Positions 5,611-42,361 of a DNA stretch of 64,000 nucleotides are shown piece after piece (position 1 is the first letter of the stretch; each line of letters starts with the position of its first letter). This DNA comes from Limonium bicolor (Eukaryota > Streptophyta > Magnoliopsida > Caryophyllales > Plumbaginaceae). The notes below the pieces were generated by a model. The model saw only the letters and a program-made list of their open reading frames with translations. It ran no database searches and had not been told where the DNA came from. Location: assembly GCA_023374045.1 (NCBI GenBank), contig CM041778.1, forward strand, positions 288,277,533 through 288,341,532, read 5' to 3'. Both the position numbers and the translations under genes were made by a program.

Positions 5611-5747
5611 ATAAACACCACAGTATATCAAACATTAATAAGAGGTATAAAGGCGGTTCAAATAAAAACCGTCTCAGTAGATACGTTTTTTGAGGTGGTT
5701 GTAACCGCCTCAAAAAGGCATTGTACCTTTTGCATTGATTTATGTGA
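5611..5747. other. Palindrome-rich flank of the gypsy array
   Basis: Contains GAGGTGGTTGTAACCGCCTC (a near-perfect palindrome) and AAAGGCGGTTC facing AAACCGTCTC. Such short palindromes are common in sub-terminal parts of CACTA elements, but no CACTA terminus is visible. The sequence continues at 30494 on the other side of the gypsy array and was therefore split by it. Confidence 0.35.
5743..5747. repeat. Target duplication TGTGA, left copy
   Basis: TGTGA directly precedes LTR1 and is repeated exactly after LTR3 at 30489-30493. Five bases is the usual size for Ty3/gypsy integration, and the pair shows that the whole 24.7-kb array derives from a single insertion. Confidence 0.9.
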
Positions 5748-8700
5748 TGAAATACCTTGTAATTAAAAATAGTGATTAATTAGGCTAATAAGTAATTTAG
5801 AAGCTTAATTAAGTATAAATAATCATGAGGGAACAAATCCCGAAGAAAACGGATCCTTAAAACGGATTAAAATCATTAACGAACCTTAAAGCGCGTTTTT
5901 CGAGGTAACCGGGAAAACGTGACTTTAAGCGGGTCAAATAAACTCGTAACAATTTTGGCCAACTAAATAATCATTAATAAATATTAGTGAAGCTTTAGAC
6001 CCAATAAAATCAATAAAACGAGGAATTAGTAAAAACTGTCAAAAACGGGAAGTTGTGGGGTAGAAACATAAATAACCAAAACTTATGTGTCCAATAATGT
6101 AAAAAGAATTTTAAAAACCCATAAGGGTTGTGTGTTGTCCGATTGGGAGCCCCCTCACACTCCCTCACACTCTCTTCTTATTAGCAAAAGACAAAAACAA
6201 TAAAGTAAAACTCATCTTACTTTATTCACTCTCACATTCTCTCTCTCCTATCCCTATTCTCTCTTCTCTCACGTGAACCCATCCCCCCACTCTCTCTTTT
6301 CTTTCTTCTTCTTCCCCCATTCGATTTCTATGGAGGTTTGAAGACCCACTCACAAACTCCATCTTCCTTCCTCTTGAAACTCCCTTGAATCTCTTCCAAA
6401 AATTATAAAAAGTATACCATTGGAATCCTCTCATCAAGAGCTACATTTCCATCCTTCCAAAATTCGAAAACAACAACTTTCATCTCCATGGGTATGGGGC
6501 ATTTGGAGCTTCAAGACCACCACTAGAACCACATTCTTCTCCTTGTTCTATTGAGGTAAAAATTTTCTTGAAACTCCATCTTTTTCTAGCCTTTGTGGGC
6601 AAAACGAATTTGGACTAAACCCTTGTTTGGTCCCTTGTGTTCTAGCCGATTTTGGGCACTCTTGAAGGAGTTGGAATCTTGTTCTTGAACCACTCCAAGC
6701 TTTGCTTGCACTCTTGGAAGGTAATGAATTTTCTAAACCCTAAAACCCTCATTAAGAGCTTAAATAATGTTAGGGTTAGTTTTTAGTATTGAAGTGTGTA
6801 TATATATGTGGGCTGTAGTGTTAGAATTTTGGTTGCTAAACCGGTGGAAAGAGGAAGAGGAAGGAAAGAGAGAAGGAAGAAGCAAGAAGAGAAAAACAAC
6901 TAGAAGAAGAACAAGGTAAAATGATGCTCTCTTGTGTAGTTTAGTAATGCATTATGTAACATATTTTTAGAAGTAAAAATATGTATTGTAAATGGTAGTG
7001 TAGTAGTAGTGTAATGTGTAGGAGAATATAAGTATTTTGAACCATTAAAAGACATTTAAAACTTGTTGAAACATGGATCAGAATTAATGTTTGAGTGCAG
7101 GAATTTAATGTTGCTAGTGGGGTGCTTTGTGTATGAGAGATGGGAATATTGATATTGATTATAAACAGGTAGTGTGGATCATTTATGTGAGTAAACAATG
7201 TGGTGAGTGTAAAATTAGGGGAGACTATGGCATTTACTTAGAAACTAGTGGACTTAAGAGATTAGAAACTAAGTGAATGGCATAGGTTGTAACAGATTTT
7301 AATAGAGAAAGATAGAGGGTGTATTAGGAGAGATAGTTAATGTAGTTGTAAGGCATTAGAGGTGCTAGAAATGACATTAGAAGAGGGAGCCATTGATGGA
7401 GAGTGATAGAGCAAAAATCTGTAGCAAAATACATTAAGGAGGAAAACAATGTGAGTGTTGAATTGGAACTTAGGAAATTGTGTATAAGTTAGTATAGAAT
7501 GGTGTAAAGAATTAGGAAATGAATTAGCATGATTTAGAGTGTTTAAATTGTACAAAAACATGTTAGGGGATATGTAGGAATTGGGGAAACAATGGGTGGA
7601 ATTGGGAAAAGAAAATAAGGGCTGTAGCAAAGTTCTGCTACCGTCCGACCCAGAGTCTGGATCGGACGGTGGGTCGGACGGGGCTTAAGAAACGATAATC
7701 AACCTTTCTGGAATGGTCCGACCCAGGACCGTGGATCGGACGTGGGTCGGACAGGCAAAAACAAATAGTGGTCGAAGTTTCTGACTTCGTCCGACCCAAA
7801 GTCTGGGTCAGACAGTGGGTCGGACGGAGCTTGGACACGGGACCAAAACCTTCTGGAACGGGCCGACCCAGAGGGTATGGGTCGGACGAAAATAGTGCTG
7901 GGTCGGACGGGGAGAATTTCAGAGGACGTAAACCTACTGGAATGGTCCGACCCAGGGCTTGGGTCGGACGCTGAGTCGGACGACCCATTACTTACAAAAA
8001 AAAAAACTGTAAGCTTATAACTAGTATATATATATGTATACCCACCTATACATATATATGTATATATGTAAGTAAACCATGGATGAGTAACGAAAGGTAA
8101 GTAAATGAAATACAAGTGTAAGGAATGTAAAGACTTAGTAGGTATGAGTTAGGAAACGTAAGAGTAATCGAATTAAGTTAATGATAGTTAGATTAATCAT
8201 TCGATTGTATGTATATCATAGGATTTGATTTGTGACACCGGAGGACGTTCAGAAACACGTACAACGGTGAACGGTATGAATTCCTCATGCCCCGTATGCT
8301 ATCTTGGTTACTCTGATTTGTGTGTTGTGTGCTAATTGATCACCAAATAAGATAAATGCACGAATCGGAGTTACTATGCATACTTGTGAATATGTAGTGC
8401 TGTATGTTGCGAATATTTTCTTAAATCTCAGTTTGTATAATTCATGAAATGTATGGATGAATATGAATGCATGTATGTATGTTGTATTGTACTGTGACCG
8501 ATTGTGATTGTGCTTGGACTTCTAACTTATTCCTAACAAGCTAACCAATCTAACTTAAATTGGTAATTAAATTGGAATGAGTAGAAGTCCGATATAGTTT
8601 CGGCCACGCGTGAGGATGAGGAGACACAAGAGGTTGGATCCGATTCCTGACTCTTAAACTGGTCCGCGGCCCAAATCCCTTAAGTGGGTAGCATCCCGGA

Positions 8701-9610
8701 TTGGTGAGTCAAGTAAATCCCGGAGGTGGGACGGAGTAGTCCCCAGGGCCGGAGGTCATACCGACTTAACTTGAGTATAAGTAAGTAAGTAAGAATGAGT
8801 AAGTAAAGTAATTGAAAGTAAGTAAGTGCAAGTAAGAGAAAGTGAGTGAAATGAGTAAAAGAGTAAACAGCATTCCGATTAACCCGGATGTGTAACTTGG
8901 CTAACACCGTGAAGGTAAGTATTGTATGCACTATTGTATTGATGCCTTGAATTGTGTAATGAATTGTAAATGCATGTATGTTGTATGTAAAGCATGTATG
9001 GATGAAATTAATGAATCGCATGTTTAGTGGACGTCAAATAGTCGGCGTGCCCTAGCTAGCACGCGGTATATGCGGAGTTCATGCGCAGCTTTTGCTGAGC
9101 CCCTAGGGGCACTGTTTTTACTACACGCAGGTACAAGAGAAGGATGAAGGCTGTGAAGAGACGTAGCTAGTCCTTTTGATTCTTTTTGGTTGTAAGCAAT
9201 GAATTATGATTGGTGTACTTAGTAGTACACGGCTGTAAGTTTTTGGTAGCCGGTGTACCATGGGGTGCACCTTTTTGGATAGTGGAAGTATTGGACTGGG
9301 GTATAGATGAGTGGCTTGTAGAAAACTCATTCTTTTGGGAAGTTTGAATTGGGATGTAATTGAATACACTTAAATACTCGGTGATCCATTAATGTAAGTA
9401 TTTGGTATGTGGTATTTGGTAAGTAATATAGTAGCTCGGTATATTATGTTCATCAGACCGTTACTGTAAGTAAGGTAAGCCTAGCTAGCCGTATGGGCGG
9501 TTAGCGGCGTTGTATCACCCGCCGTAGTAATGGTAGTATTTCCCCTGCGAACTGATAGGATTAACGGGACGATTAGACGGTAAGCATAGGATTAACGGTA
9601 GGGTGTTACA
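5748..9610 (+). repeat. LTR1 of gypsy array (3,863 bp)
   Basis: Starts TGAAATACC and ends GTGTTACA, five bases before the primer site. Very long for a gypsy LTR but within the range known for Tekay/Del chromoviruses. A CT-rich leader-like stretch (about 6160-6320) resembles plant 5' untranslated sequence, and a GCCCCTAGGGGC palindrome lies near 9099. The distinctive palindromic block at 7641-7982 is listed separately. Short open frames inside the LTR are not conserved in frame among the three LTRs and are not considered genes. Confidence 0.92.
7641..7982. repeat. Forward-reverse-reverse GTCCGACCCA array in LTR1
   Basis: Fifteen copies of GTCCGACCCA or its complement TGGGTCGGAC (up to one mismatch) form five modules, each with one forward copy followed by two reverse copies. 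The first two copies of each module can pair into a short hairpin. The block is GC-rich inside an otherwise AT-rich LTR and is kept at the corresponding place in LTR2 and LTR3. It could be a protein-binding or RNA-folding element; function unknown. Confidence 0.8.
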
Positions 9611-9615
9611 AAAAG

Positions 9616-9627
9616 TGGTATCAGAGC
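9616..9627 (+). other. Primer-binding site (tRNA-Met type), E1
   Basis: TGGTATCAGAGC lies five bases after the LTR1 end and matches the primer site used by most plant LTR elements, complementary to the 3' end of initiator tRNA-Met. Confidence 0.88.
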
Positions 9628-11483: not shown

Positions 11484-12224
11484 GAAGCTTTAGTATTTGT
11501 TATCCAATACCGGTAAACCGGAATCAAGAAGAGATCGACATCACCAATCACTACTACACACAATGAACAGTGTCAGGTCATCCGACCAGGTATGATCTTA
11601 TTAAGGGGATACCTGACACCCGAAGCGCAAATTTCAATCATCCGACGATGCAACAAGCTAGGAACGGGTCAAGGAGGATTTTATACACCCGAATTCCCCG
11701 GTGGAGCGAAGATGAAACTGAAGATGATGTTCTTGGGAAAGGATTGGAATCCTTATACCAAGACATACCAGGAGACATGAACACAAGATGGAGCAACGCC
11801 ACCGACAATACCTCCAGAGTTTCAGACACTCGTCACACAAGCAGTAGAACTTGCACAACAATGTGAACATGAACCGATTCCCGCACTTGAAGCGGACCTT
11901 TGTATCGTCAACTTCTATGAGAAAGAAGGACGACTTGGGTTACACCAAGACAGGGACGAGACCACGGAATCTCTTGAACAAGGAGTGCCCGTAGTGTCTT
12001 GGTCCATTGGTGATGACGCCGTATTCCTGTATAGCGAGCAGAAGCGTGTGGACCTCGCACAGAAACTGGTATTGAGATCAGGAGATGTCCTAATCATGGG
12101 TGGAAACTCTAGGATGCTGTATCACGGGATCAACAAGATCAAGTTGAATACGGCACCACCGGCAATAATCAATGCCACACACATGAAACCAGGATGCCTG
12201 AACCTTACCTTTAGGAAGTATTAA
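11484..12224 (+). pseudogene. AlkB-like 2OG-Fe(II) dioxygenase exon, E1 copy
   Basis: Resembles the plant ALKBH1-type branch of the AlkB family, enzymes that oxidatively remove methyl groups from nucleic acids. Visible blocks: RPGMILLRGYLTPEAQ, FYTPEF, KMKLKMMFLGKDWNPYT, NFYEKEGRLGLHQDRDE, SGDVLIMGG, YHGINKIKLNTAP and LNLTFRKY. Iron ligands would be His 11943-11945, Asp 11949-11951 and His 12123-12125. The exon is entered through an AG acceptor ending at 11483, in phase with the gag donor after 11327, and ends in its own TAA. It is broken by a one-base insertion near 11560 (absent from E2) and by an in-frame TGA at 11778-11780 (shared with E2). Located between gag and protease, where gypsy elements normally have no gene. 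Confidence 0.88.
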
Positions 12225-16143: not shown

Positions 16144-19100
16144 TGAAATACCCCGTAATTAAAAATAGTGATTAATTAGGCTAATAAGTAATTTAGAAGC
16201 TTAATTAAGTATAAATAATCATGAGGGAACAAATCCCGAAGAAAACAGATCCTTAAAACGGATTAAAATCATTAACGAACCTTAAAGCGCGTTTTTCGAG
16301 GTAACCAGGAAAACGTGAATTTAAGCGGGTCAAATACACTCGTAACAATTTTGGCCAACTAAATAATCATTAATAAATATTAGTGAAGCTTTAGAGCCAA
16401 TAAAATCAATAAAACGAGAATTTGTAAAAACTGTCAAAAACGGGAAGTTGTGGGGTAGAAACATAAATAACCAAAACTTATGTGTCCAATAATGTAAAAA
16501 AATTTTAAAAACCCATAAGGGCTGTGTGTTGTCCGATTGGGAGCCCCCTCACACTCCCTCACACTCTCTTCTTATTAGCAAAAGACAAAAACAATAAAGT
16601 AAAACTCACCTTACTTTATTCACTCTCACATTCTCTCTCTCCAATCCCTATTCTCTCTTCTCTCACGTGAACCCATCCCCCTCACTCTCTCTTATCTTTC
16701 TTCTTCCCCCATGCGATTTCTATGGAGGTTTGAAGACCCACTCACAAACTCCATCTTCCTTCCTCTTGAAACTCCCTTGAATCTCTTCCAAAAATTATAA
16801 AATACCATTGGAATCCTCTCATCAAGAGCTACATTTCCATCCTTCCAAAATTCGAAAACAACAACTTTCATCTCCATGGGTATGGAGCATTTGGAGCTTC
16901 AAGACCACCACTAGAACCCCTTCTTCTCCTTGTTCTATTGAGGTAAAAATTTTCTTGAAACTCCATCTTTTTCTAGCCTTTGTGGGCAAAACGAATTTGG
17001 ACTAAACCCTTGTTTGGTCCCTTGTATTCTAGCCGATTTTGGGCACTCTTGAAGGAGTTGGAATCTTGTTCTTGAACCACTCCAAGCTTTGCTTGCACTC
17101 TTGGAAGGTAATGCATTTTCTAAACCCTAAAACCCTTATTAAGAGCTTAAATAATGTTAGGGTTAGTTTTTAGTATTGAATGTGTATATATGTGGGCTGT
17201 AGTGTTAGAATTTTGGTTGCTAAACCGGTGGAAAGAGGAAGAGGAAGAGAAGAAAAGAGAAGGAAGAAGCAAAGAGAAAAACAACTAGAAGAAGAACAAG
17301 GTAAAATGATGCTCTCTTGTGTAGTTTAGTAATGCATTATCTAACAGATTTTTAGAAGTAAAAATATGTATTGTAAATGGTAGTGTAGTAGTAGTGTAAT
17401 GTGTAGGAGAATATAAGTATTTTGAACCATTAAAAGACATTTAAAACTTGTTGAAACATGGATGGGAATTAATGTTTGAGTGCAGGAATTTAATGTTGCT
17501 AGTGTGCTTTGTGTATGAGAGATGGGAATATTGATATTGATTATAAACAGGTAGTGTGGATCATTTATGTGAGTAAAACAATGTGGTGAGAGTGTAAAAT
17601 TATAGGGGAGACTATGGCAAAATTTACTTAGAAACTAGTGGACTTAAGAGATTAGAAACTAAGTGAATGGCATAGGTTGTAACAGATTTTAATGGAGAAA
17701 GATAGAGGGTGTATTAGGAGAGATAGTTAATGTAGTTGTAAGGCATTAGAGGTGCTAGAAATGACATTAGAAGAGGGAGCCATTGATGGAGAGTGATAGA
17801 GCAAAATCTGTAGCAAAATACATTAAGGGGGAAAACAATGTGAGTGTTGAATTTGAACTTAGGAAATTGTGTATAAGTTAGTATAGAATGGTGTAAAGAA
17901 TTAGGAAATGAATTAGCATGATTTAGAGTGTTTAAATTGTACTAAAACATGTTAGGATGTATGTAGGAAGATTGGGGAAACAATGGGTGGAATTGGGAAA
18001 AGAAAATAAGGGCTGTAGCAAAGTTCTGCTACCATCCGACCCAGAGTCTGGATCGGACGGTGGGTCGGACGGGGCTTAAGAAACGATAATCAACCTTTCT
18101 GGAATGGTCCGACCCAGGACCGTGGATCGGACGTGGGTCGGACAGGCAAAAAAAATAGTGGTCGAAGTTTCTGACTTCGTCCGACCCAAAGTCTGGGTCG
18201 GACAGTGGGTCGGACAGAGCTTGGACACGGGACCGAAACCTTCTAGAACGGTCTAACCCAGAGTGTATGGGTCGAACGGAAATAGTGCTGGGTCGGACGA
18301 GGAGAATTTCAGAGGACGTAAACCTACTGGAATGGTCCGACCCAGGGCTTGGGTCGGACGCTGGGTCGGACGACCCATTACTTACAAAAAAAAAACTGTA
18401 AGCTTATAACTAGTATATATATATGTATACCCACCTATACATATGTATGTATATATGTAAGTAAACCATGGATGAGTAACGAAAGGTAAGTAAATGAAAT
18501 ACAAGTGTAAGGAATGTAAAGACTTAGTAAGTATGAGTTAGGAAACGTAAGAGTAATCAAATTAAGTTAATGATAGTTAGATTAATCATTCGATTGTATG
18601 TATATCATAGGATTTGATTTGTGACACCGCAGGACATTCGGAAACACTTACAACGGTGAACGTATGAATTCCTCATGCCCCGTATGCTATCTTGGTTACT
18701 CTGATTTGTGTGTTGTGTGCTAATTGATCACCAAATAAGATAAATGCACGAATCGGAGTTACTATGCATACTTGTGAATATGTAGTGTGTATGTTGCGAA
18801 TATTTTCTTAAATCTCAGTTTGTATAATTCATGAAATGTATGGATGAATATGAATGCATGTATGTATGTTGTATTGTACTGTGACCGATTGTGATTGTGC
18901 TTGGACTTCTAACTTATTCCTAACAAGCTAACCAATCTAACTTAAATTGGTAATTAAATTGGAATGTGTAGAAGTCCGATATAGTTTCGGCCACGCGTGA
19001 GGATGAGGAGACACAAGAGGTTGGATCCGATTCCTGACTCTTAAACTGGTCCGCGGCCCAAATCCCTTAAGTGGGTAGCATCCCGGATTGGTGAATCAAG

Positions 19101-19991
19101 TAAATCCCGGAGGTGGGACGGAGTAGTCCCCAGGGCCGGAGGTCATACCGACTTAACTTGAGTATAAGTAAGTAAGAATGAGTAAGTAAAGTAATTGAAA
19201 GTAAGTAAGTGCAAGTAAGAGAAAGTGAGTGAAATGAGTAAAAGAGTAAACAGCATTCCGATTAACCCGGATGCGTAACTTCGCTAACACCGTGGAGGTA
19301 AGTATTGTATGCACTATTGTATTGATGCCTTGAATTGTGTAATGAATTGTAAATGCATGTATGTTGTATGTAAACATGTATGTATGAAATTAATGAATCG
19401 CATGTTTAGTGGACGTCAAATAGTCGGCGTGCCCTAGCTAGCACGCGGTATATGCGGAGTTCATGCGCAGCTTTTGCTGAGCTCCTAGGGGCACCGTTTT
19501 TACTACGCGCAGGTACAAGAGAAGGATGAAGGCCGTGAAGAGACGTAGCTAGTCCTTTTGATTCTTTTGGTTGTAAGCAATGATTATGATTGGTGTACTT
19601 AGTAGTACACGGCTGTAAGTTTTTGGTAGCCGGTGTACCATGGGGTGCACCTTTTTGGATAGTGGAAGTATTGGACTGGGGTATAGATGAGTGGCTTGTA
19701 GAAAACTCATTCTTTTGGGAAGTTTGAATTGGGATGTAATTGAATACACTTAAATACTCGGTGATCCATTAATGTAAGTATTTGGTATGTGGTATTTGGT
19801 AAGTAATATAGTAGCTCGGTATATTATGTTCATCAGACCGTTACTGTAAGTAAGGTAAGCCTAGCTAGCCGTATGGGCGGTTAGCGGCGTTGTATCACCC
19901 GCCGTAGTAATGGTAGTATTTCCCCTGCGAACTGATAGGATTAACGGGACGATTAGACGGTAAGCATAGGATTAACGGTAGGGGTGTTACA
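16144..19991 (+). repeat. LTR2, shared middle LTR, chimeric
   Basis: Serves as the 3' LTR of E1 and the 5' LTR of E2. Diagnostic bases up to about 19534 agree with LTR3 and differ from LTR1, for example GGTGAATCAAG, CTTCGCTAACACCGTGGAGG and GAGCTCCTAGGGGCACCG. From about 19600 onward it agrees with LTR1 and differs from LTR3, for example GTACTTAGTAG, GGGGTGCACC and TCCCCTGCGAACTG. A crossover therefore lies between 19534 and 19600. Confidence 0.92.
18032..18372. repeat. Forward-reverse-reverse GTCCGACCCA array in LTR2
   Basis: Same five-module block as in LTR1. The first copy is changed to ATCCGACCCA and module four reads GTCTAACCCA, a change shared with LTR3. Confidence 0.78.
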
Positions 19992-19996
19992 AAAAG

Positions 19997-20008
19997 TGGT
20001 ATCAGAGC
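19997..20008 (+). other. Primer-binding site (tRNA-Met type), E2
   Basis: TGGTATCAGAGC, five bases after the end of LTR2, the same arrangement as in E1. Confidence 0.88.
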
Positions 20009-20218: not shown

Positions 20219-21708
20219 ATGTCAGGAAGAGGTTCAGGTCGCCCTAGAGGAGGGGGCAATGACGGACCCGGCACGCAGACGATAGCTGAAATCGTCGCTG
20301 CCACGGTAGCACAGATGCTACCACAAGTAATCCAAGCTATGCAACAGAACCAGCAAAACCAACAGAACCAAGCGGGGCCAATCCCTCCCCCTCCACCCAG
20401 AGAAGCTAACTGGGTAAAAGCTGTAGCGGAACTCCGCCCTCCTTGCTTTAGGGGCGAGAGTGATCCGGCTAAGCTAGAAGCCTATATCTCCGAGATGGAG
20501 ACGGCATTCGAAACCCTCGAAGCTCCTGCTAGAGTTCGAGTCAGGGTTGCTACTTATTATCTGAAAGATGCTGCTATGGATTGGTGGAAGCTTGTCAAAC
20601 ATGAGCACGTCAATGACCCCACCTTCGATTGGGAGTCTTTTGCATCTCTCCTCTGATCCAAGTACTATCCGGAGCATGTAAAGACTAAGAAAAGGCTAGA
20701 GCTAGATGCCTTGAAGATGACAGACAAGATGTCTGTCGACGAATACTACCGCACCTTTACCTCCATTCTCCGTCTTCTACCCGACCTTGGGTACACCGGC
20801 CAGGTGTTGGTCGATCGCTTCTATGGCGGTCTGAGCCATCGCCTTCGGTACGGTATGGGCTACACTCGATTTACCTCCCTTCAGGTAAATATCGGTTAAC
20901 CCTTAGTACCATTTCAATTCCTTAATTTCCTTGAATTCCTTGAATCTTCTCTTTATCCTTTCTTAAATGAGAATCCCGGCTAATACCTGAAACTTCAGGA
21001 GTGTTATCACGCGGCTTCTCGCGTTGAGATCACTTGCCAGCTAAGGGATGAAGAAACCGCGCTGAAACGCAAGGCTAATAGCAAGAACACAAGTGCCGAG
21101 GAGCAGAACTAGGGGAAAAGCTGGAAGAAGAAGAAGGGAAAGTTCTTCGGTCAGACCTCCAAGAACTTCCCAAGTGAGAGCAGTGCCCATGCTGAGCAGG
21201 GCAAACCAGTTGAGCTTCTTCAGCTTGGTTCATCTGCACCGGTGGCTGCAAAGCCACTGAGATCACACCCACCAAAGGGTAAACTTCTATTCCTAAATCA
21301 TATTCTTACAAGTACCATATCTAGTATATCCACGCACACATGTGCTAACCCTCTAAACTTCAGGCTCTGGCTCCGGGTTCACCAAAACCTTCTCAGACGG
21401 CCGCACCTATGTGTGCAGGAAGTGCAACCAAGACCATCCCGGCAAAGACTGTTATGGGAGAGAAATCAAATGCTACAACTGCCAGAAACCAGGACACACG
21501 GCCAATAGATGCCCAGAAAATGCTAAGCAAAAAGGGAACTTCCAAGGCTACAAGCAGAGGGAAGGCAAGGAGGTTGCATCTGGTGATGCACCAGCCCAGC
21601 AGGCACCACAGGGACAGGGATCCCGGGGACCTCAGAGGGGTGCACCTCAGAGGCAGCCTGTCCTTCATGTCATAGACCGTGACGGGTCCGGTTCTAAATC
21701 CGGCCCAG
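20219..21708 (+). pseudogene. gag: gag, E2 copy, three spliced exons
   Basis: Exons 20219-20884 (666 nt), 20999-21278 (280 nt) and 21364-21708 (345 nt), with introns 20885-20998 and 21279-21363. I see no difference from E1 gag. Only two in-frame stops interrupt it (TGA 20654-20656, TAG 21109-21111), both shared with E1. The coding length ends in phase 1, which fits both downstream acceptors: exons plus the AlkB exon (740 nt) give 2,031 nt, and exons plus the pol exon to its stop (3,284 nt) give 4,575 nt. Both totals are exact multiples of three. Confidence 0.88.
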
Positions 21709-22743
21709 GTAATTAATCTAAACCTTTAATCCTTGAAGAAGCATGTCTGAGTATTAGAGTAACTGTATGAGTGAATGCATGAGTAGATGAAATGAAGTGT
21801 ATATTAAGCATGAAATAAAGTAGCTGAAACTAGTACTCACCGTAGATGAAATTTGTAACCATAGGAAGCTTTAGTATTTGTTATCCAATACCGGTAAACC
21901 GGAATCAAGAAGAGATCGACATCACCAATCACTACTACACCAATGAACAGTGTCAGGTCATCCGACCAGGTATGATCTTATTAAGGGGATACCTGACACC
22001 CGAAGCGCAAATTTCAATCATCCGACGATGCAACAAGCTAGGAACGGGTCAAGGAGGATTTTATACACCCGAATTCCCCGGTGGAGCGAAGATGAAACTG
22101 AAGATGATGTTCTTGGGAAAGGATTGGAATCCTTATACCAAGACATACCAGGAGACATGAACACAAGATGGAGCAACGCCACCGACAATACCTCCAGAGT
22201 TTCAGACACTCGTCACACAAGCAGTAGAACTTGCACAACAATGTGAACATGAACCGATTCCCGCACTTGAAGCGGACCTTTGTATCGTCAACTTCTATGA
22301 GAAAGAAGGACGACTTGGGTTACACCAAGACAGGGACGAGACCACGGAATCTCTTGAACAAGGAGTGCCCGTAGTGTCTTGGTCCATTGGTGATGACGCC
22401 GTATTCCTGTATAGCGAGCAGAAGCGTGTGGACCTCGCACAGAAACTGGTATTGAGATCAGGAGATGTCCTAATCATGGGTGGAAACTCTAGGATGCTGT
22501 ATCACGGGATCAACAAGATCAAGTTGAATACGGCACCACCGGCAATAATCAATGCCACACACATGAAACCAGGATGCCTGAACCTTACCTTTAGGAAGTA
22601 TTAAATCCATAGTATCATGTAATGTATTAGTAACGTGTATTAGAGACACGGTTTGTATGATGGTTGGTTTATCAATAAGAGCAGTGTTGATTTAATTCCA
22701 CTTGTGTCCACCATCAATACTTATCCAATTGTGAATTCAATAG
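21709..22743 (+). promoter_or_regulatory. Alternatively spliced interval, gag donor to pol acceptor
   Basis: The GT donor at 21709 (GGCCCAG^GTAATT) can join the AG at 21863-21864 (AACCATAG^GA), giving Gag-AlkB, or the AG at 22742-22743 (AATTCAATAG^GT), giving Gag-Pol. Both junctions are phase 1 and open across the join. The AlkB stop (TAA 22602-22604) lies before the second acceptor, so the products are mutually exclusive. The equivalent in E1 is 11328-12363 and in E3 46655-47640. This is inference from sequence; no transcript was examined. Confidence 0.68.
21865..22604 (+). pseudogene. AlkB-like 2OG-Fe(II) dioxygenase exon, E2 copy (best preserved)
   Basis: About 246 codons with one defect: TGA at 22158-22160, most simply a CGA arginine codon changed by C-to-T. 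After a linker (SFSICYPIPVNRN) comes the AlkB fold: RPGMILLRGYLTPEAQ, then KMKLKMMFLGKDWNP, then the catalytic half. Fe(II) ligands are His 22323-22325 and Asp 22329-22331 in GLHQDRDE and His 22503-22505 in YHGINKI. The 2-oxoglutarate-binding arginine is at 22593-22595 in LNLTFRKY. The preceding arginine of the family's R-x5-R motif is cysteine here (TGC 22575-22577). Closest remembered relatives are plant ALKBH1-type proteins. A role in demethylating or repairing element RNA or cDNA is plausible by analogy with AlkB domains in some plant RNA virus replicases, but is not shown. Confidence 0.9.
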
Positions 22744-25700
22744 GTTGTGGACTCGGTACCGAAGGTATCCTGAGTATCGTCACCGAAGCACAAGCCGGCA
22801 AGAGCGGCACCATTCTAACGGGAACCTTCCCAGTGAACGGCATTGACGCCAATGTGTTATTCGACTCCGGCGCCTCTCACACCTTCGTATCACCATCCTT
22901 TGTGAAGAGGTTGAAGCTAGATGCGGATGAGCTACCGAATTTTGTGGTTACTCTCCCATCAAAGGAGCGAGTAAAGTGCACCAAATATTATCAATTAGCC
23001 ACCATCGAAATAAAAAATGAGACGTTTCCCATTTCCTTCATCGAATTTAATGGATTGGGATTCGACTTAATCATTGGAATGAGTTGGTTGGAGCGGCACA
23101 AGGGTAGAATCCTCTGCGCCGAGCATCGTTTGCTGCTCAAGAGTCCTTCTGGGGTTACAGTATCTTACCGCCAGAGACCGAGGGAGCCTTCGACCACACT
23201 CATATCTGCTATGGCTATGTACCGGGAGCTCCGAAAGGGCCACAAAGTATATCTGTGTTATGTACAAGACCTGGAGAGAGATCCAGAGTTCAGTGAAGAT
23301 GTACCGATTGTATCCGAATTCCCCGATGTATTCCCTAAGGAGCTACCCGGCATGCCACCACCGAGAGCAGTGGAATTTGAAATTGATCTTTTGCCAGGTA
23401 CCGGTCCCATTGCTAGGGCACCGTACCGTATGGCACCTGCTGAAATGACCGAATTGAAAGAACAGTTGCGCGATCTTCTCGACAAAGGGTTTATACGCCC
23501 GAGCGTATCACCCTGGGGAGCACCGGTTCTCTTCGTGAAAAAGAAGGACGGTAGTCTCCGACTTTGCATTGACTACCGCAAGTTGAATGCGGTCACAGTA
23601 AAAAATAAATACCCATTGCCACGCATCGACGACCTATTTGATCAGCTGAAAGGAGCATCAGTCTTCTCCAAGATTGACCTCCATTCTGGGTATCATCAAA
23701 TTGCAATTAAGGAACAAGACATTGAGAAAACGGCATTCCGTACCAGATATGGCCACTACGAATTCACGGTGATGCCATTCGGTTTGTCAAATGCACCAGC
23801 TAAATTCATGGACCTCATGAATCGACTATTCAGTGACCAGTTGGACACTTCAGTTGTGGTATTTATTGATGACATCCTTGTATATTCAAAATCAGTAGAG
23901 GAACATGAAACTCATTTGAGGAAAGTGCTTGAGACACTGCGCGAGAATCAGCTGTATGCGAAGTTCTCCAAATGCGAGTTCTGGCTAGATCAGGTATCAT
24001 TCCTCGGTCATGTCATCTCGAGCGCAGGCATCTCAGTTGACCCTTCTAAGATAGAAGCTGTACGATCATGGCCTAGACCTAAGACTGTTACCGACATTGG
24101 GAGCTTTCTTGGTCTAGCCGGTTACTACCGGAGATTCATTAAGGACTTCTCGAAAATCGCTAAGCCCATGACTACATTGATGAAGAAAGATGCACCGTTT
24201 GTATGGACAGACGAGTGCGAGTTATCATTTCAGAAACTAAAAGACTCATTGACCTCAGCGCCCATCCTTACTCTTCCAGAGGGCACATAGGGATTTGAGG
24301 TATACTGTGATGCATCAGGCAAAGAAATGGGATGCGTACTCATGCAGCATGGCAAGGTTGTTGCTTATGCCTCCCGCCAGCTGAAAAAGCATGAGGAGAA
24401 TTACCCGACACACGATTTAGAGTTAGGAGCCATTGTCTTCGCCATGAAGATATGGAGACACTATCTCTATGGGGTAAGCATCACCATCTACTCCGGCCAT
24501 AAGAGCTTACAGTATGTATTCACAAAGAAAGAATTGAACTTAAGACAGAGAAGATGGATGGAGTTTCTTTCAGATTACGACATCGACTTACAGTATAAGG
24601 AAGGGAAGGCAAACATCGTAGCCGACGCCCTGAGCCGTCGAGCACACTCACTCCATTCGCTACTCGCTTCTTCTAGCTTGGTTGACGAGGTGCGAGACGC
24701 TCAGTTGAGCGACCCTTACCTAACCGAAATCAGACAAAAGATTGAAGATGGTACATTTGAGAAGAAGAAGTATGACTTCAAGCTACATGACGATGGTTTG
24801 ATTCGGTTGAATGGCAGGCTATGCGTCCCCCGAAGCAATGCTGAGCTAAGGGATCGCATCCTGCGAGAGTCACACAGTTCCACATTGTCAGTCCATCCGG
24901 GAGCCTCCAAGATGTACAAAGACATGAAGAGGTACTTCTGGTGGTCTGGAATGAAATCAGATGTGACAGAATTTGTATTGAGATGCTTAACATGCCAGAA
25001 GGTAAAATTTGAACATCGTAAACCGGGCGGAATGGTACAATCGATGCCAGTTCCGGAATGGAAATTTCATGATATCTCCATGGATTTTGTTGTAGGACTC
25101 CCACCTGCTAGGGGAGGACTCAACATGATCTGGGTTGTAGTCGATCGCCTTACCAAGGTTGCCAGATTCATACCGATGAAGGACACCTGGAAGGTAGTGA
25201 AGCTAGCTGAGCTGTTCGACAAGGAGATTATCAGACATCACGGAGTCCCGAAAACAATAGTATCTGACCGCGACACCAGATTTCTTTCGAGATACTGGAG
25301 AGCTACACGGGAAGCGCTGGGTACAGAATTGAAGTTGAGTACCGCCTTCTATCCTCAGACCGACGGTCAGACAGAAAGGACCATCCAAACACTGGAGGAC
25401 ATGCTTCGGGCATGTGCCTTGGACTTTCAGGGGAATTGGTTAGACAAGCTTCATCTTATCGAATTTTCATACAATAATAGTTATCATGCCTCGATTAAGA
25501 TGTCGCCTTTCCAAGCTCTATACGGTACACCCTGCCGTACACCCTTGTGTTGGGATGAGTCAAGCGAAGCGGTCGTCATAGGACCGGAGTACCTAGAACA
25601 AGTCCAAGCGGAAGTGCAACAAATCCGAGCCAATATGAAGACAGCCCAAGATAGACAGAAATCCTATGCGGATGTGAGACGACGCGACCTTGAGTTCGCC

Positions 25701-26027
25701 GTGGGCGACCAAGTGTTCTTGCGCGTTTCACCTATGAAGGGCGTATTCCGTTTTGGTCAGAAGGGCAAGCTAAGCCCAAAATTTGTAGGACCGTACACTA
25801 TTACCGAAAGAGTTGGATCCGTAGCCTACAGGTTGGCACTACCTGAGGACTTGGGACGTGTCCATGATGTATTTCATGTGTTACAACAACTCAAGAAGTA
25901 TATTGCTGATCCTTCTCATGTCTTAGAGCCCGAGAGATTATCCATTGAGCCGACAATGAGATATGTTGAAACAGCTGATCCTTCTCATGTCTTAGACCCG
26001 AGAGATTATCCATTGAGCCGACAATGA
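22744..26027 (+). pseudogene. pol: pol, E2 copy, one internal stop, chromodomain lost
   Basis: One open frame apart from TAG at 24288-24290. Order: aspartic protease ([10 protein letters not shown]), RT ([28 protein letters not shown], catalytic FIDDILVYS), RNaseH ([15 protein letters not shown]), integrase zinc-binding region ([13 protein letters not shown]) and catalytic core ([22 protein letters not shown]). A direct duplication at about 25905-26040 shifts the frame, so the protein ends at 26027 before the chromodomain, which survives only as out-of-frame remnants to about 26190. Chromodomain and order place it among chromoviruses, closest to Tekay/Del. The frame continues upstream to 22653, but the predicted entry is the AG acceptor at 22742-22743. 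Confidence 0.93.
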
Positions 26028-26040
26028 GATATGTTGAAAC
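25905..26040 (+). repeat. Tandem duplication of about 67 bp disrupting the E2 chromodomain
   Basis: The segment starting GCTGATCCTTCTCATG at 25905 is repeated from 25974 with a one-base loss (TTAGACCCG for TTAGAGCCCG). E1 has a single copy at about 15504-15570. The duplication is private to E2 and therefore younger than the E1/E2 tandem, unless it is an assembly error. Confidence 0.85.
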
Positions 26041-26191
26041 CCCAGTGAGAATCCTTGATAGGAAGACCAGACATTCGCCATAAGTCTATACGGATGGTGA
26101 AGGTCCTATGGTCAAACCATGATGTCGAAGAAGCGACATGGGAGTTGGGAGATGCCATGAAGGCTAAGTACCCACAGTTGTTCATAGACTA

Positions 26192-26610: not shown

Positions 26611-29600
26611 TGAAATACCCCGTAATTAAAAATAGTGATTAATTAGGCTAATAAGTAATTTAGAAGCTTAATTAAGTATAAATAATCATGAGGGAACAAA
26701 TCCCGAAGAAAACAGATCCTTAAAACGGATTAAAATCATTAACGAACCTTAAAGCGCGTTTTTCGAGGTAACCAGGAAAACGTGACTTTAAGCGGGTCAA
26801 ATACACTCGTAACAATTTTGGCCAACTAAATAATCATTAATAAATATTAGTGAAGCTTTAGAGCCAATAAAATCAATAAAACGAGGAATTTGTAAAAACT
26901 GTCAAAAACGGGAAGTTGTGGGGTAGAAACATAAATAACCAAAACTTATGTGTCCAATAATGTAAAAAGAATTTTAAAAACCCATAAGGGCTGTGTGTTG
27001 TCCGATTGGGAGCCCCCTCACACTCCCTCACACTCTCTTCTTATTAGCAAAAGACAAAAACAATAAAGTAAAACTCACCTTACTTTATTCACTCTCACAT
27101 TCTCTCTCTCCAATCCCTATTCTCTCTTCTCTCACGTGAACCCATCCCCCTCACTCTCTCTTATCTTTCTTCTTCTTCCCCCATGCGATTTCTATGGAGG
27201 TTTGAAGACCCACTCACAAACTCCATCTTCCTTCCTCTTGAAACTCCCTTGAATCTCTTCCAAAAATTATAAAAAGTATACCATTGGAATCCTCTCATCA
27301 AGAGCTACATTTCCATCCTTCCAAAATTCGAAAACAACAACTTTCATCTCCATGGGTATGGAGCATTTGGAGCTTCAAGACCACCACTAGAACCTCCTTC
27401 TTCTCCTTGTTCTATTGAGGTAAAAATTTTCTTGAAACTCCATCTTTTTCTAGCCTTTGTGGGCAAAACGAATTTGGACTAAACCCTTGTTTGGTCCCTT
27501 GTATTCTAGCCGATTTTGGGCACTCTTGAAGGAGTTGGAATCTTGTTCTTGAACCACTCCAAGCTTTGCTTGCACTCTTGGAAGGTAATGCATTTTCTAA
27601 ACCCTAAAACCCTTATTAAGAGCTTAAATAATGTTAGGGTTAGTTTTTAGTATTGAAGTGTGTATATATATGTGGGCTGTAGTGTTAGAATTTTGGTTGC
27701 TAAACCGGTGGAAAGAGGAAGAGGAAGAGGAAGGAAAAAGAGAAGGAAGAAGCAAGAAGAGAAAAACAACTAGAAGAAGAACAAGGTAAAATGATGCTCT
27801 CTTGTGTAGTTTAGTAATGCATTATCTAACAGATTTTTAGAAGTAAAAATATGTATTGTAAATGGTAGTGTAGTAGTAGTGTAATGTGTAGGAGAATATA
27901 AGTATTTTGAACCATTAAAAGACATTTAAAACTTGTTGAAACATGGATGGGAATTAATGTTTGAGTGCAGGAATTTAATGTTGCTAGTGGGGTGCTTTGT
28001 GTATGAGAGATGGGAATATTGATATTGATTATAAACAGGTAGTGTGGATCATTTATGTGAGTAAAACAATGTGGTGAGAGTGTAAAATTATAGGGGAGAC
28101 TATGGCAAAATTTACTTAGAAACTAGTGGACTTAAGAGATTAGAAACTAAGTGAATGGCATAGGTTGTAACAGATTTTAATGGAGAAAGATAGAGGGTGT
28201 ATTAGGAGAGATAGTTAATGTAGTTGTAAGGCATTAGAGGTGCTAGAAATGACATTAGAAGAGGGAGCCATTGATGGAGAGTGATAGAGCAAAAATCTGT
28301 AGCAAAATACATTAAGGGGGAAAACAATGTGAGTGTTGAATTTGAACTTAGGAAATTGTGTATAAGTTAGTATAGAATGGTGTAAAAAGAATTAGGAATG
28401 AATTAGCATGATTTAGAGTGTTTAAATTGTACTAAAACATGTTAGGATGTATGTAGGAAGATTGGGGAAACAATGGGTGGAATTGGGAAAAGAAAATAAG
28501 GGCTGTAGCAAAGTTCTGCTACTGTCCGACCCAGAGTCTGGATCGGACGGTGGGTCGGACGGGGCTTAAGAAACGATAATCAACCTTTCTGGAATGGTCC
28601 GACCCAGGACCGTGGATCGGACGTGGGTCGGACAGGCAAAAAAAAATAGTGGTCGAAGTTTCTGACTTCGTCCGACCCAAAGTCTGGGTCGGACAGTGGG
28701 TCGGACGGAGCTTGGACACGGGACCGAAACCTTCTAGAACGGTCTAACCCAGAGGGTATGGGTCGAACGGAAATAGTGCTGGGTCGGACGGGGAGAATTT
28801 CAAAGGACGTAAACCTACTGGAATGGTCCGACCCAGGGCTTGGGTCGGACGCTGGGTCGGACGACCCATTACTTACAAAAAAAAAAACTGTAAGCTTATA
28901 ACTAGTATATATATATGTATACCCACCTATACATATGCATGTATATATGTAAGTAAACCATGGATGAGTAACGAAAGGTAAGTAAATGAAATACAAGTGT
29001 AAGGAATGTAAAGACTTAGTAAGTATGAGTTAGGAAACGTAAGAGTAATCAAATTAAGTTAATGATAGTTAGATTAATCATTCGATTGTATGTATATCAT
29101 AGGATTTGATTTGTGACACCGCAGGACATTCGGAAACACTTACAACGGTGAACGGTATGAATTCCTCATGCCCCGTATGCTATCTTGGTTACTCTGATTT
29201 GTGTGTTGTGTGCTAATTGATCACCAAATAAGATAAATGCACGAATCGGAGTTACTATGCATACTTGTGAATATGTAGTGCTGTATGTTGCGAATATTTT
29301 CTTAAATCTCAGTTTGTATAATTCATGAAATGTATGGATGAATATGAATGCATGTATGTATGTTGTATTGTACTGTGACCGATTGTGATTGTGCTTGGAC
29401 TTCTAACTTATTCCTAACAAGCTAACCAATCTAACTTAAATTGGTAATTAAATTGGAATGTGTAGAAGTCCGATATAGTTTCGGCCACGCGTGAGGATGA
29501 GGAGACACAAGAGGTTGGATCCGATTCCTGACTCTTAAACTGGTCCGCGGCCCAAATCCCTTAAGTGGGTAGCATCCCGGATTGGTGAATCAAGTAAATC

Positions 29601-30488
29601 CCGGAGGTGGGACGGAGTAGTCCCCAGGGCCGGAGGTCATACCGACTTAACTTGAGTATAAGTAAGTAAGAATGAGTAAGTAAAGTAATTGAAAGTAAGT
29701 AAGTGCAAGTAAGAGAAAGTGAGTGAAATGAGTAAAAGAGTAAACAGCATTCCGATTAACCCGGATGCGTAACTTCGCTAACACCGTGGAGGTAAGTATT
29801 GTATGCACTATTGTATTGATGCCTTGAATTGTGTAATGAATTGTAAATGCATGTATGTTGTATGTAAAACATGTATGTATGAAATTAATGAATCGCATGT
29901 TTAGTGGACGTCAAATAGTCGGCGTGCCCTAGCTAGCACGCGGTATATGCGGAGTTCATGCGCAGCTTTTGCTGAGCTCCTAGGGGCACCGTTTTTACTA
30001 CGCGCAGGTACAAGAGAAGGATGAAGGCCGTGAAGAGACGTAGCTAGTCCTTTTGATTCTTTTGGGTTGTAAGCAATGAATTATGATTGGTGTACTAAGT
30101 AGTACACGGCTGTAAGTTTTTGTTAGCCGGTGTACCATGGGGTACAACGTTTTGGATAGTGGAAGTATTGGACTGGGGTATAGATGAGTGGCTTGTAGAA
30201 AACTCATTCTTTTGGGAAGTTTGAATTGGGATGTAATTGAATACACTTAAATACTCGGTGATCCATTGATGTAAGTATTTGGCATGTGGTATTTGGTAAG
30301 TAATATAGTAGCTCGGTATATTATGTTCATCAGACCGTTACTGTAAGTAAGGTAAGCCTAGCTAGCCGTATGGGCGGTTAGCGGCGTTGTATCACCCGCC
30401 GTAGTAATGGTAGTATTTCCGCTGCGAACTGATAGGATTAACGGGACGATTAGACGGTAAGTGTAGGATTAACGGTAGGGGTGTTACA
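26611..30488 (+). repeat. LTR3 of gypsy array (3,878 bp)
   Basis: Starts TGAAATACCCC and ends GTGTTACA, followed by the target duplication TGTGA at 30489-30493. Distinguished from LTR1 and LTR2 near its end by GGGGTACAACG, CATTGATGTAAG, TCCGCTGCGAAC and GGTAAGTGTAGG. Confidence 0.92.
28522..28863. repeat. Forward-reverse-reverse GTCCGACCCA array in LTR3
   Basis: Same five-module block as in LTR1 and LTR2, with the GTCTAACCCA variant in module four. Confidence 0.78.
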
Positions 30489-30493
30489 TGTGA
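30489..30493. repeat. Target duplication TGTGA, right copy
   Basis: Exact repeat of 5743-5747, marking the right edge of the gypsy array. Confidence 0.9.
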
Positions 30494-30745: not shown

Positions 30746-30860
30746 TTAGTGAACATAATTCTACGGAAGGTTAATAATGACTCGCACTACTGTTTGCGTA
30801 CAATTCATGTACATCTCCTAACTTTCAAAATCCTGATACCGGCCTTCCTTTTAATTATAA

Positions 30861-31275
30861 GGGAAAATTCACGATATACCCCTATTTTTTTTTGTAATTC
30901 ACAATATACCCCTGTTGGTTTTCATAATTCAACTTTAAACATGCTTAAATGTTCTCCAAAATTGATGAAACTTTATGTGGACGATGCTAAAGTGTGATAT
31001 TTTGGTCAAATATCAAATTTGAAGTTTTTTAAGCTCACATGTGACCTGTGGGACCCAATCAAAATTGTGACATGTTCATTGGGTCCCACATGTCACATAT
31101 GAGCTTAAAAAACTCAAATTTGATATTGGACCAAAATATAACATTTTAGCATCATCCATGTAAAGTTTCATCAATTTTGGACAACATTTAAGCATGTTTA
31201 AAGTTGAATTACGAAAACCAACAGGGGTATATTGTGAATTACGATAGAAAACATGGGTATATCGTAAATTATCCC
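30861..31275. mobile_element. Foldback MITE, complete (Mutator-like, 9-bp duplication)
   Basis: Two inverted arms of about 190 bp surround a short centre; arms begin GGGAAAATTCACGATATACC and end TATATCGTAAATTATCCC. Flanked by perfect 9-bp duplications TAATTATAA at 30852-30860 and 31276-31284. Its right arm matches the partial copy at 1-178. No open frame of its own; the small frames on both strands are arms read through. Confidence 0.88.
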
Positions 31276-31284
31276 TAATTATAA

Positions 31285-32085
31285 TTATGAAGATTCCCTT
31301 TTGCCTCTTTTTCCCAACCCTACACATCAACACTAGTATATTTTAAATTTATGGATGAGGATTCATTTTCATTTTTTTAAAAGCAGAACAAGAAAAGAAT
31401 AGTGGCCAAGAACTCTAGTCATGGAAGTGACTTCATGAGGTGATGTATTTGGTAATGTGTCTTAGCGCTCTATTGATTTGATTTTGTCCGTTCACGAATA
31501 TGTAATTAAACTATTCCAGCCAAAACGACAAATCTGTGTAGGAAATAGGGCATGTCACCTATTGATGAGAGCCTAGACTCGCTTACAAGAGGGACGTTTC
31601 TTTCTAGAGAAAGGCTATCTAGTAGTTCTGAGTTTTCGAGTGAGTAGATGGGGCCTTTACAAATGTGATTTTTCACGTACGAGTGCGTAAATAATTGACC
31701 TTGACGTACAGTGGCTATCGATCGTGGGGAGCAACAAAAGGAAAGGAGAAGGTAAACACTTTACATCTATTGCGAGGGTGATTTTTTTGATAAAAGGTGG
31801 GCGGTTTTTTGGTATTGAGTAAAACTTAAGTTAATTTGAATGAGGGGGAACTAAAAAAATATGGTGAGTTATATGGTACAATAGTATGTTGATATATATA
31901 TATATATATATATATATTATGCATAAATTTATTGAGTGTTTATGCATTTCTATTCAGCTCATTGATAATATGATTTACATAGTTTTAAGCTGGGTAAGTA
32001 CTAGGTACTACTATTGTTTAATTTTTTATCTCAAAATAATATTGCAGTTATTTTTAATAGTCGGATTCTCCTCGTCTATATCAGT
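31285..32085. other. Unannotated stretch with a TA microsatellite
   Basis: Mostly non-repetitive sequence with no recognisable gene. A (TA)n run lies at about 31893-31917. Confidence 0.5.
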
Positions 32086-34296: not shown

Positions 34297-34446
34297 GAAC
34301 CCTAACCTTATAAGGAAGCACCAATCCCCTTTGCCCGTTATCCTGGAGAATGCGCCCCACGCGCGTCTCCTTCCCCCCAATCCCGTCTCGTTCTGCATCC
34401 CTCTTCCCGTCCTGCTCAGCCCTCCGTTTCTCTGTTCCTGGGGGCC

Positions 34447-35951
34447 ATGGTGCGCCGGCGTCCGCCGTGGCAGCCTCCTCCGGCTCCCCCCTCCCTCGAC
34501 TCTCCCTCTGCAGACGGTAGGTCTCCAGCTGTGGCGTGCAACCCGGCTTCCTCCCTAGGTGTTCCTGTTCGTGCTATCGGCGGACCGTCGGCTTCCTCTT
34601 GTGGTGGAGTTCCGCCCCCTCTTGCTCCCCCTGTGTGTGAGTCGTGCGCGCCTTCCCCTGGTGGTGAGGATGTTGTTAGGTCATTCCCTCCTTCAAGCTC
34701 GACATGTATGGTGTCGAACAATCTGCTGGCTCCCAAGTCTGGGCAGGTGGCCCGCGTCGGTTGTGTTGTCTATAATTCTGCTGAGGCTTTTTCTGGTGCG
34801 GCTACAATGGGTAATCTGGTGGCACCTAGACGTTCCAGTAGGGTGGTCAACCACTCCCTGTCCCGGTCAACCTCTCTCCCCTCTGTAGTTGTCCATCCTT
34901 CCTATATCTCTAGTGCTTCTGGTTATGGTTCAGGCCCTTCGGAGGCGCTGTCCCAAGGTGGGGACCTCCCCTCCATCAATCTGGTGGTTGACTTAGAGTG
35001 CGCTGTTGGTGCTGCGTGTGAAAGGGGTGTCGCACCCCATGAGGCTTTCCCGTAGCTCTAATCTGTGGGTGTGCCTGGCTCAATTCGCCCTGCCCGGTAG
35101 CTGCTCCTAGGCATCCTCCTCCCCTTGCCGTGCTAGGTTCGTTGGCTCCCAAGCCTGATGCGTGGCGTGCCCAACGTATCTCCAAGCGTCCAATTTCAGG
35201 TATATCTTCTATCCCTCCATCCTTGGCTGCCTCTGGGTCCACAGATCTGGCTTCATTCTTAGATATTCGCTGGCTAAACAAAAAGGTTTTTCCGGTATGT
35301 CTTTGAGTTCTGACTTCGGCGATGCTCTGGAAGATGATAGCCCAATTGTGTCTTTAGTCAAAGAGGATTTGGCGCCTGAAATAGATTATTGGAAGCATTC
35401 CCTAGTTGGCACCTGTGGGGAAGAAAGTAAGGGTTTAATTTAGTGAGGGATTTTGTCAGACGGGCCTGGAGTTTTGTCCCAACCCTTCAAATCCTGCATC
35501 ATGTGGAGGGGTGGTACATGTTCAAATTTGATAAGGAAGAGGGCCTCGAGCTTGTCCTTTGCAAAGGCCCCTAGCTTTTAAACTCCTCCCCCCTCGTGTT
35601 TAAGAAGTGGTCCTCTGATATCTCCTTAAACCCCAAGGATCTGAATCGCGTCCCAGTGTGGATCCAGCTCCCCAGACTGCCTATTAGTCTTTGGCCAGCT
35701 CGAGCCTTAGTAAAATTTGCTCTAAACTTGGCGCTCCCCTTCACACTGACCAGCCCACAGTTGACCAATCCCGCATCTCCTTTTCCAGAGTCCTGGTGGA
35801 GGTGGATTTCAAACAAGAGTTGGTGAGAGAAGTGGAAATTCGTACTCCCATGGGTGTCCTCTCCCAGCCTGTGGCTTATGAGTGGGAACTAGTTACTTGC
35901 TCTTTCTGCAAGCTTCTTGGCCACCCCTCTCACTGCTGTCCCTTCTCTTAG
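34447..35951 (+). pseudogene. LINE ORF1 (DUF4283-like RNA-binding protein)
   Basis: Begins with the ATG at 34447 and a proline- and serine-rich segment open to a TAG at 35053-35055. After frame changes it continues with a block typical of plant LINE ORF1 proteins: DYWKHSLVG at about 35385, VPVWIQLPRLPISLW at about 35650, then a zinc knuckle CSFCKLLGHPSHCC at about 35900-35940. The family binds element RNA and forms the ribonucleoprotein. At least one stop and two frameshifts break it. Confidence 0.75.
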
Positions 35952-36400
35952 GCCCCCCAGTCCCCAAGCAGCCTCGCCCTCCTAAAGTTCGGAAAGTCCC
36001 CCCTCCTCCCTCCAATCCCCAGCCTCTGCTCCCAACCTCTGTCCATCCCCCTCACTCCTAAAGTCCCGCCGATAGCAAACCTTCCTCCGGTCTGGCACCC
36101 TGCTAAGGCCAGCCCTCAGTCCACTGACCCAAGGAACCTCTCCTCAGCCCCTTCCTCACCCTTGGAGCCTAAACCATCCATTAACAGATCTTCATCCTTG
36201 CCCTCCCTCTCCCCTATGTCCCCCTCGCTTCGACTCATTCTTGAGCCCTTTCAGACTGACTCCTGGCAACTCGTTCCTCCCAAGCTCAAGCCTTCTCCCC
36301 TTTCCGTGGAGGACCCCCTCATCCAACTCACAAACTTCTTCTCCGCTTTGGAGCTTGACCCTGATGTAGTTGACTCCTCCTCCTCCCCCTCCATCCCCCT

Positions 36401-42326: not shown

Positions 42327-42361
42327 GGCCGTCCGATCTCGTTTTAAGAGATTGGACGGCC
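42327..42361. repeat. GTCCGA-containing hairpin in E3 5' LTR
   Basis: Near-perfect 14-bp stem with a 7-base loop; the same hairpin is at 53579-53613 in the 3' LTR. Its GTCCGATC core resembles the GTCCGACC motif repeated in the E1/E2 LTRs. Confidence 0.7.

Follow-up and report, generated by a model that had tools for sequence, protein, structure and literature searches.

Two Ty3/gypsy retrotransposon families in Limonium bicolor with a dioxygenase gene of the ALKBH1 type between gag and pol, predicted to be joined to gag by alternative splicing

The DNA analysed here (the window) is a stretch of 64,000 nucleotides from the Limonium bicolor genome assembly GCA_023374045.1 (contig CM041778.1, positions 288,277,533 to 288,341,532), and window coordinates are used throughout. 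It holds two independent insertions of long terminal repeat (LTR) retrotransposons from two families, called A and B, each bounded by a perfect 5-bp target site duplication (TSD) and with all features on the forward strand. Family A has the layout LTR-interior-LTR-interior-LTR inside one outer TSD, TGTGA, at 5743-5747 with an exact match at 30489-30493. Its LTRs, delimited by self-blastn, lie at 5748-9610 (boundaries TGAAATACC...GTTACA), 16144-19991 (the shared middle LTR) and 26611-30488. Family B is flanked by CCATG at 40885-40889 and, as an exact match, at 56276-56280, with its 5' LTR at 40890-45026 (self-blastn) and its 3' LTR at 51482-56275. All three interiors open with the primer binding site (PBS) TGGTATCAGAGC, which we take to be of the initiator tRNA-Met type, at 9616-9627 and 19997-20008 in copies 1 and 2 of family A and at 45032-45043 in family B. 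One family A unit measures 14.2 kb and family B 15.4 kb. Scans of the 64-kb window for tRNA genes and Rfam families gave no match.

The two families are considered distinct because no match between them was found in the self-blastn of the window at E 1e-20. The outer LTRs of family A differ by a K2P distance of 0.022 and the LTRs of family B by 0.019, and between the two family A interiors, of 5886 sites aligned, 6 carry a substitution (indels disregarded). Between 5743 and 30493, near-identical interiors thus stand beside more divergent LTRs, and the array looks like an older single insertion that was later duplicated by a recent unequal exchange. As the interiors would have been duplicated within one insertion, AlkB copies 1 and 2 of family A are counted once. 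An earlier note, made from the sequence alone, had reported an AlkB-type domain in all three gypsy interiors; each interior does carry one, but with a single outer TSD around the family A array they represent only two independent insertions.

In copy 2 of family A, gag is spread over several frames from an approximate start at 20204 to a predicted splice donor at 21708 and comprises a capsid part, a predicted small intron and a zinc knuckle, the Ty3_capsid match (E 1.2e-4) being below the Pfam cut-off. The interrupted pol gene at 22744-26183, identified with Pfam and by tblastn with a related protein, P0129, encodes protease, reverse transcriptase (RT), RNase H, integrase, SH3_Tf2-1 and an SH3/chromodomain-like end. 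The broken pol of family B runs from a predicted acceptor at 47641 to its chromodomain-like end at 51063. The LTRs, the 5-bp TSDs, the PBS, the polypurine tract and the order gag-PR-RT-RH-INT place the carriers in Ty3/gypsy, as the earlier note had proposed. They are apparently plant chromoviruses, judging from the end of pol: the relative P0129 matches the Chromo family PF00385 there at E 0.0031, which is below the curated cut-off, and this chromodomain-like stretch is 67% identical to the end of family B pol. From motif and LTR style we guess that the clade is Tekay. Reports of Tekay, Reina and CRM are confined to seed plants (PMC6317226).

Between gag and protease/RT, all three interiors contain a domain that is confirmed as an AlkB-family dioxygenase of the ALKBH1 group. 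In copy 2 of family A it occupies 21865-22604, a single frame of 245 residues with one internal stop, the C-terminus LNLTFRKY and its own stop codon. A tblastn search with this frame found the three copies at 11486-12221, 21867-22601 and 46833-47517; the exons are placed at 11484-12224 in copy 1 (start predicted) and at 46834-47546 in family B, where four readable pieces remain and the iron ligands are kept. The earlier note had called an AlkB enzyme from an HxD...H motif, an SGDVLI-GG block and NLTFR, and had staked this call on a significant profile match. The copy 2 frame indeed has HxD (H153, D155), a distal H213, SGDVLIMGG and NLTFR, and it matches PF13532 at E 1.8e-42 over positions 1-194 of 194, beginning at residue 35. 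H153 and D155 are identical in 20 of 20 aligned AlkB sequences and H213 is present in at least 90%. The 2-oxoglutarate (2OG) motif of the AlkB family, RxNxTxR, is intact in the relatives P0001, P0002, P0004 and P0009, but has lost its first Arg to Cys in family A and is disrupted by a frame break in family B.

The affinity to ALKBH1 suggested in the earlier note was also borne out. Rice ALKBH1 (5xeg) was the top PDB sequence match to the family A protein (E 2.3e-69), followed by E. coli AlkB (~1e-20) and mammalian ALKBH1 (~2e-11), and none of the 21 distinct PDB sequences matched was ALKBH5 or FTO by name. The structure prediction recommended in that note was carried out with AlphaFold, entering the premature TGA as a residue, and gave a model with a mean pLDDT of 86.8 and a pTM of 0.86. 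Its two best fold matches were OsALKBH1 structures (5xoi and 5xeg, TM 0.85 and 0.83). By both sequence and fold search of solved structures, the family A protein is therefore nearer to ALKBH1 than to ALKBH5, FTO or ALKBH2, and E. coli AlkB ranks second among its solved relatives. Viral proteins (BFVD) matched the model more weakly than OsALKBH1, the plant-virus entries among the 50 matches listed reaching 10-17% identity and a TMq of about 0.5 or less. An origin of the domain from a virus was rejected on these far weaker matches.

None of the three AlkB frames in the window is intact. The two family A copies share a premature stop (22158-22160 in copy 2) as well as the Cys in RxNxTxR, where the other sequences reaching this point in the alignment have Arg, and copy 1 has an additional one-base frame break. 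The internal stops are absent from the relatives P0001 and P0002, and the LTR divergence of about 2% is consistent with decay of AlkB after insertion. To assess selection, families A and B were compared at 237 codons that could be aligned, taken from four hand-chosen pieces. With pN at 0.30 and pS at 0.85 (saturated), pN/pS was 0.35 (bootstrap 0.28-0.43), and identity at codon positions 1, 2 and 3 was 0.61, 0.76 and 0.36, respectively. This pattern indicates that the frame coded for protein and was under purifying selection during the divergence of A and B.

In both families, Gag-AlkB and Gag-Pol are predicted to be produced from one transcript by alternative splicing. The predicted family A donor, CAG/GTAATT at 21708/21709, lies where the gag frame hits stops just 3' of it. 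It could be joined in phase to an acceptor at 21864/21865, removing a GT-AG intron of 156 nt (21709-21864) in front of AlkB, or to an acceptor at 22743/22744 (CAATAG/GTTG), removing 1035 nt (21709-22743) and skipping AlkB on the way to pol. In family B, the predicted donor CTG/GTGAGG at 46654/46655 could be joined to acceptors at 46833/46834 for AlkB (an in-phase intron of 179 nt, 46655-46833) and at 47640/47641 for pol (GTGTAG/GAGC). The reading frame is kept at all four predicted junctions, two per family. Of the AG sites scanned as acceptors for AlkB, just one of 17 in family A and one of 8 in family B is in phase and open, and in both families it sits directly 5' of a conserved [SD]IC[YF]P motif. 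The pol acceptors are less certain because several AG sites fit, 4 of 14 in family A (the first was chosen) and 5 of 13 in family B (the second was chosen).

Two other routes of expression were considered and rejected. Against ribosomal read-through from gag into AlkB stand the gag-frame stops between donor and AlkB, seven in family A and four in family B. Against a Gag-AlkB-Pol polyprotein stands the phase of the candidate donors: the final ~105 bases of AlkB contain two GT sites in family A and a single one in family B, each in the wrong phase. As AlkB has its own stop and no right-phase GT near its end, the product would end as Gag-AlkB.

Further intron-like stretches were observed in both families. 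A small gag intron may lie before the zinc knuckle at 21279-21363 in family A (85 nt) and at 46221-46290 in family B (70 nt), with a GT donor, an AG acceptor and the same phase in both. If this intron is real, wholly unspliced RNA would encode a capsid without the zinc knuckle. Family B has an additional short intron-like stretch inside the start of protease, at about 47716-47789, which is absent from family A; the first Met of P0129 is just past the point matching it.

Relatives of the domain were described from the best 120 of 839 matches in a protein search. Seven element-type AlkBs were found among the matches listed (P0001-P0004, P0009, P0011 and P0012), with 55-70% identity. P0004 is almost identical to P0011, therefore there are at least six distinct relatives of this type. 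Host-type ALKBH1 proteins among the same matches had 44-52% identity and the remainder were mainly bacterial-type AlkBs. Four element-type sequences extend far enough to include the [SD]IC[YF]P motif (A, B, P0002 and P0011), and each of them has it. A search of viral contigs with P0001 gave 0 loci; a search with alignment A2 gave 3 loci in viral contigs and 70 in genome contigs, bacterial by their titles, at 28-43% identity.

The phylogeny with host ALKBH1 proteins that the earlier note had called for was built from 27 sequences, including 9 from elements and 11 host-type ALKBH1. In each of 200 bootstrap trees (100%), a single change was enough to separate element from host-type sequences, and the branch dividing them had support of 81/89. 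An element clade nested inside a host ALKBH1 clade was not found in this 27-row tree, which mixes long branches and places its root and two algal-like sequences unsurely. The topology is compatible with a single capture and subsequent inheritance along with the element. As the earlier note had proposed, uptake of a host-like gene is supported as the best reading of the tree, and we infer that the gene was probably captured from a host in one event. In front of the catalytic core, element AlkBs have about 10 residues fewer than ten host-type sequences, and five bacterial AlkBs are shorter still. A derived loss in the elements was dropped as an explanation, since with bacterial AlkBs even shorter this feature is silent on the direction of change.

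The association of AlkB with gypsy pol is apparently not confined to this locus, a point on which the earlier note had let its reading depend: seven relatives of the AlkB occur elsewhere, and one of them, P0002, apparently shares its contig with a gypsy pol. A query with the protease and early RT gave 239 matches, of which the best 120 are considered here. The best pol match among those listed was P0129, an uninterrupted pol of 1095 aa with 59% identity in the protease/early-RT piece and, by tblastn, 72.6% identity to family A pol over 22833-26183. The contigs that carry the AlkB P0002 and the pol P0129 are both 26,561 bp long (for P0129 according to ENA), and from this equal length they are apparently one and the same. 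Four contigs with element-type AlkBs could hold both genes (26621, 26561, 9956 and 23054 bp), and no pol partner for those of 26621, 9956 and 23054 bp was found among the best 120 of 239 matches. The next pol match among those listed, at 46%, was a predicted protein from Spinacia in which gag is joined to protease without AlkB, and this locus, known from the predicted protein alone, may have a skipped AlkB exon. By Pfam domains, a Gag-AlkB fusion was found in none of 11 proteins, with lengths up to ~1076 aa, drawn from 826 candidates. Two of the pol matches, P0157 and P0234, are plant-type gypsy polyproteins filed under Listeria welshimeri and Cyanistes caeruleus, and most likely represent plant DNA contamination of those assemblies.

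AlkB domains in Gypsy elements have been published before. According to a 2022 study, Phalaenopsis Gypsy elements (Gypsy_Pa_2799) carry a paALKBH5-like ORF2 whose product is an m6A demethylase in vitro and binds RNA, and among consensus elements of 121 angiosperm genomes the AlkB domain was detected in two Phalaenopsis species only (PMC9289625). The elements in the window are therefore not the first AlkB-carrying Gypsy. The expectation in the earlier note of an undescribed system stands in part: an AlkB in Gypsy is already known (PMC9289625), but the ALKBH1 clade, the position and the predicted expression differ.

The orchid element and the elements described here are alike in being plant Ty3/gypsy elements with a PF13532 dioxygenase domain kept over many copies. 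They differ in other respects (PMC9289625). The orchid element has a Tat/Ogre-like RT with dual RNase H, a tRNA-Arg PBS and a length of 25 kb, whereas the present elements have a chromovirus-type pol, whose chromodomain-like end speaks against Tat/Ogre, the PBS TGGTATCAGAGC and lengths of 14.2 and 15.4 kb. The orchid AlkB belongs to the ALKBH5 clade and is a separate ORF2 of 565 aa, whereas the window AlkB belongs to the ALKBH1 clade and is an exon between gag and protease with predicted splicing to gag. On the sequence evidence this is a second, different case of AlkB in Gypsy. The AlkB is of another clade and in another position, and the PBS, the element size and the predicted expression differ as well; the carrier lineage apparently does too. 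Among the titles listed from open-licence PMC literature, none points to a Gypsy element with a gene of the ALKBH1 kind.

Similarities to other known systems are more limited. Rice and other plant ALKBH1 proteins share with the element AlkBs 48-49% identity in the fold alignment, the fold, the iron ligands and the C-terminal NLTFR, and the longer host proteins also have an FDIC motif. Unlike them, the element AlkBs are without the long N-terminal region, have the shorter stretch before the core and form a separate tree group. Plant RNA viruses (Betaflexiviridae and others) likewise have AlkB on a mobile, RNA-based plant replicon, but there it is a domain of the replicase, whereas here a spliced fusion to Gag is predicted. 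Plant LTR elements are described as generally without introns, with Ogre and EVADE as named exceptions (PMC12786077). In these two, splicing also yields different products from one element RNA (PMC12786077, PMC6317226). In the excerpts available no captured gene is named in their introns, whereas in the present elements the alternatively spliced exon would code for an enzyme.

Taken together, we consider it somewhat more probable than its competitors combined that this Ty3/gypsy lineage carries an ALKBH1-like gene between gag and pol, probably from one host capture, which is predicted to be expressed as Gag-AlkB through alternative splicing and to act as a demethylase on the RNA or cDNA of the element itself. 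RNA left unspliced at the donor at the end of gag would yield Gag, use of this donor with the near acceptor would yield the Gag-AlkB fusion, and use with the far acceptor would skip AlkB and yield Gag-Pol. The Gag part could carry AlkB into the particles, where it would meet both the genomic RNA and the minus-strand cDNA. AlkB could then strip N6-methyl or similar groups from the genomic RNA or the single-stranded minus cDNA. Such demethylation could help the element evade m6A-dependent sequestration or silencing, or could mend alkylation damage.

A more specific version, which we put forward tentatively, is that each particle packages an ALKBH1-type eraser fused to Gag, which would clean N6-methyladenine from both the packaged RNA and the single-stranded minus cDNA and free the element from m6A-based sequestration and heterochromatin marking. 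For plant ALKBH1, demethylation of 6mA has been reported, notably in single-stranded DNA, and rice ALKBH1 possibly also acts on RNA (PMC12973404, PMC8118384). In Arabidopsis, m6A on retrotransposon RNA is reported to promote silencing (PMC12973404), and ALKBH9B is reported to release the RNA of ONSEN from stress granules. For mammalian L1, by contrast, m6A is reported to be beneficial and ALKBH5 to be suppressive (PMC7873242), and erasure of m6A need therefore not benefit an element.

The strongest competitor, which we regard as possible although clearly less probable than the Gag-AlkB fusion, is a separate AlkB protein, made from the internal Met36 (in PGM) or from its own Gag-less spliced RNA and exerting its effect in trans, on RNA or chromatin of the host. 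The Pfam domain begins at residue 35, beside Met36; a product starting there would have ~210 aa, a length close to that of E. coli AlkB; and the stop codon of AlkB sets it apart from pol. The orchid AlkB is also a separate ORF, for which action in trans was proposed (PMC9289625). However, the [SD]IC[YF]P motif is upstream of Met36 and conserved up to the predicted acceptor, and joining gag to this acceptor preserves the reading frame in A and B alike.

Unlikely, and somewhat less probable than the separate protein, is a role of the enzyme in repair of m1A and m3C, as alkylation damage to the RNA or cDNA of the element, instead of removal of regulatory marks. E. coli AlkB, the second-best solved relative, is a repair enzyme, and repair has been postulated for the AlkB of plant RNA viruses, as discussed in the orchid study (PMC9289625). 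The closest relative, however, is plant ALKBH1, whose reported substrate is 6mA (PMC8118384, PMC12973404).

We think it very improbable that AlkB is a neutral passenger, a functionless host ALKBH1 copy caught in an intron of the element. Although no copy in the window is intact, the low pN/pS between families A and B, the intact P0001 and P0002, the kept iron ligands, the occurrence of AlkB in several lineages and LTR divergence fitting decay after insertion all argue against it. Chance, an assembly fault or a host pseudogene nested after insertion of the element can practically be dismissed, given the identical position of AlkB in two independent insertions of different families, the TSDs, and the apparently linked AlkB/pol pair on another contig (P0002/P0129).

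A second and differently built capture of AlkB by a plant Gypsy element would turn the orchid case into a pattern. If the proposed demethylation of the element's own nucleic acids is correct, adenine methylation of element RNA or cDNA would be a pressure that repeatedly selects counter-measures, and Gypsy elements, those of the orchid included, would have converged on the capture of AlkB as a counter-defence. The ALKBH1 clade points towards DNA 6mA or cDNA as well as RNA m6A. Under the Gag-AlkB model the enzyme would be a component of the particle, which makes it directly testable.

The rest of the window contains further repeats. An RVT_1 domain was found by Pfam at 37650-38717 within 34306-39377, which by its look we take to be a plant element of the non-LTR (LINE) type. 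At 57604-62849 lies a broken element with a PBS-like TGGTATCAGAGC at 57604 and, by Pfam, an integrase core and SH3_retrovirus at 60452-61336; it is presumably Ty1/copia-like. A palindromic repeat at 30852-31287 is 89% identical to its own reverse complement, matches the opening 180 bases of the window (1-183) at 93-94%, and is perhaps an element of the foldback or MITE type.
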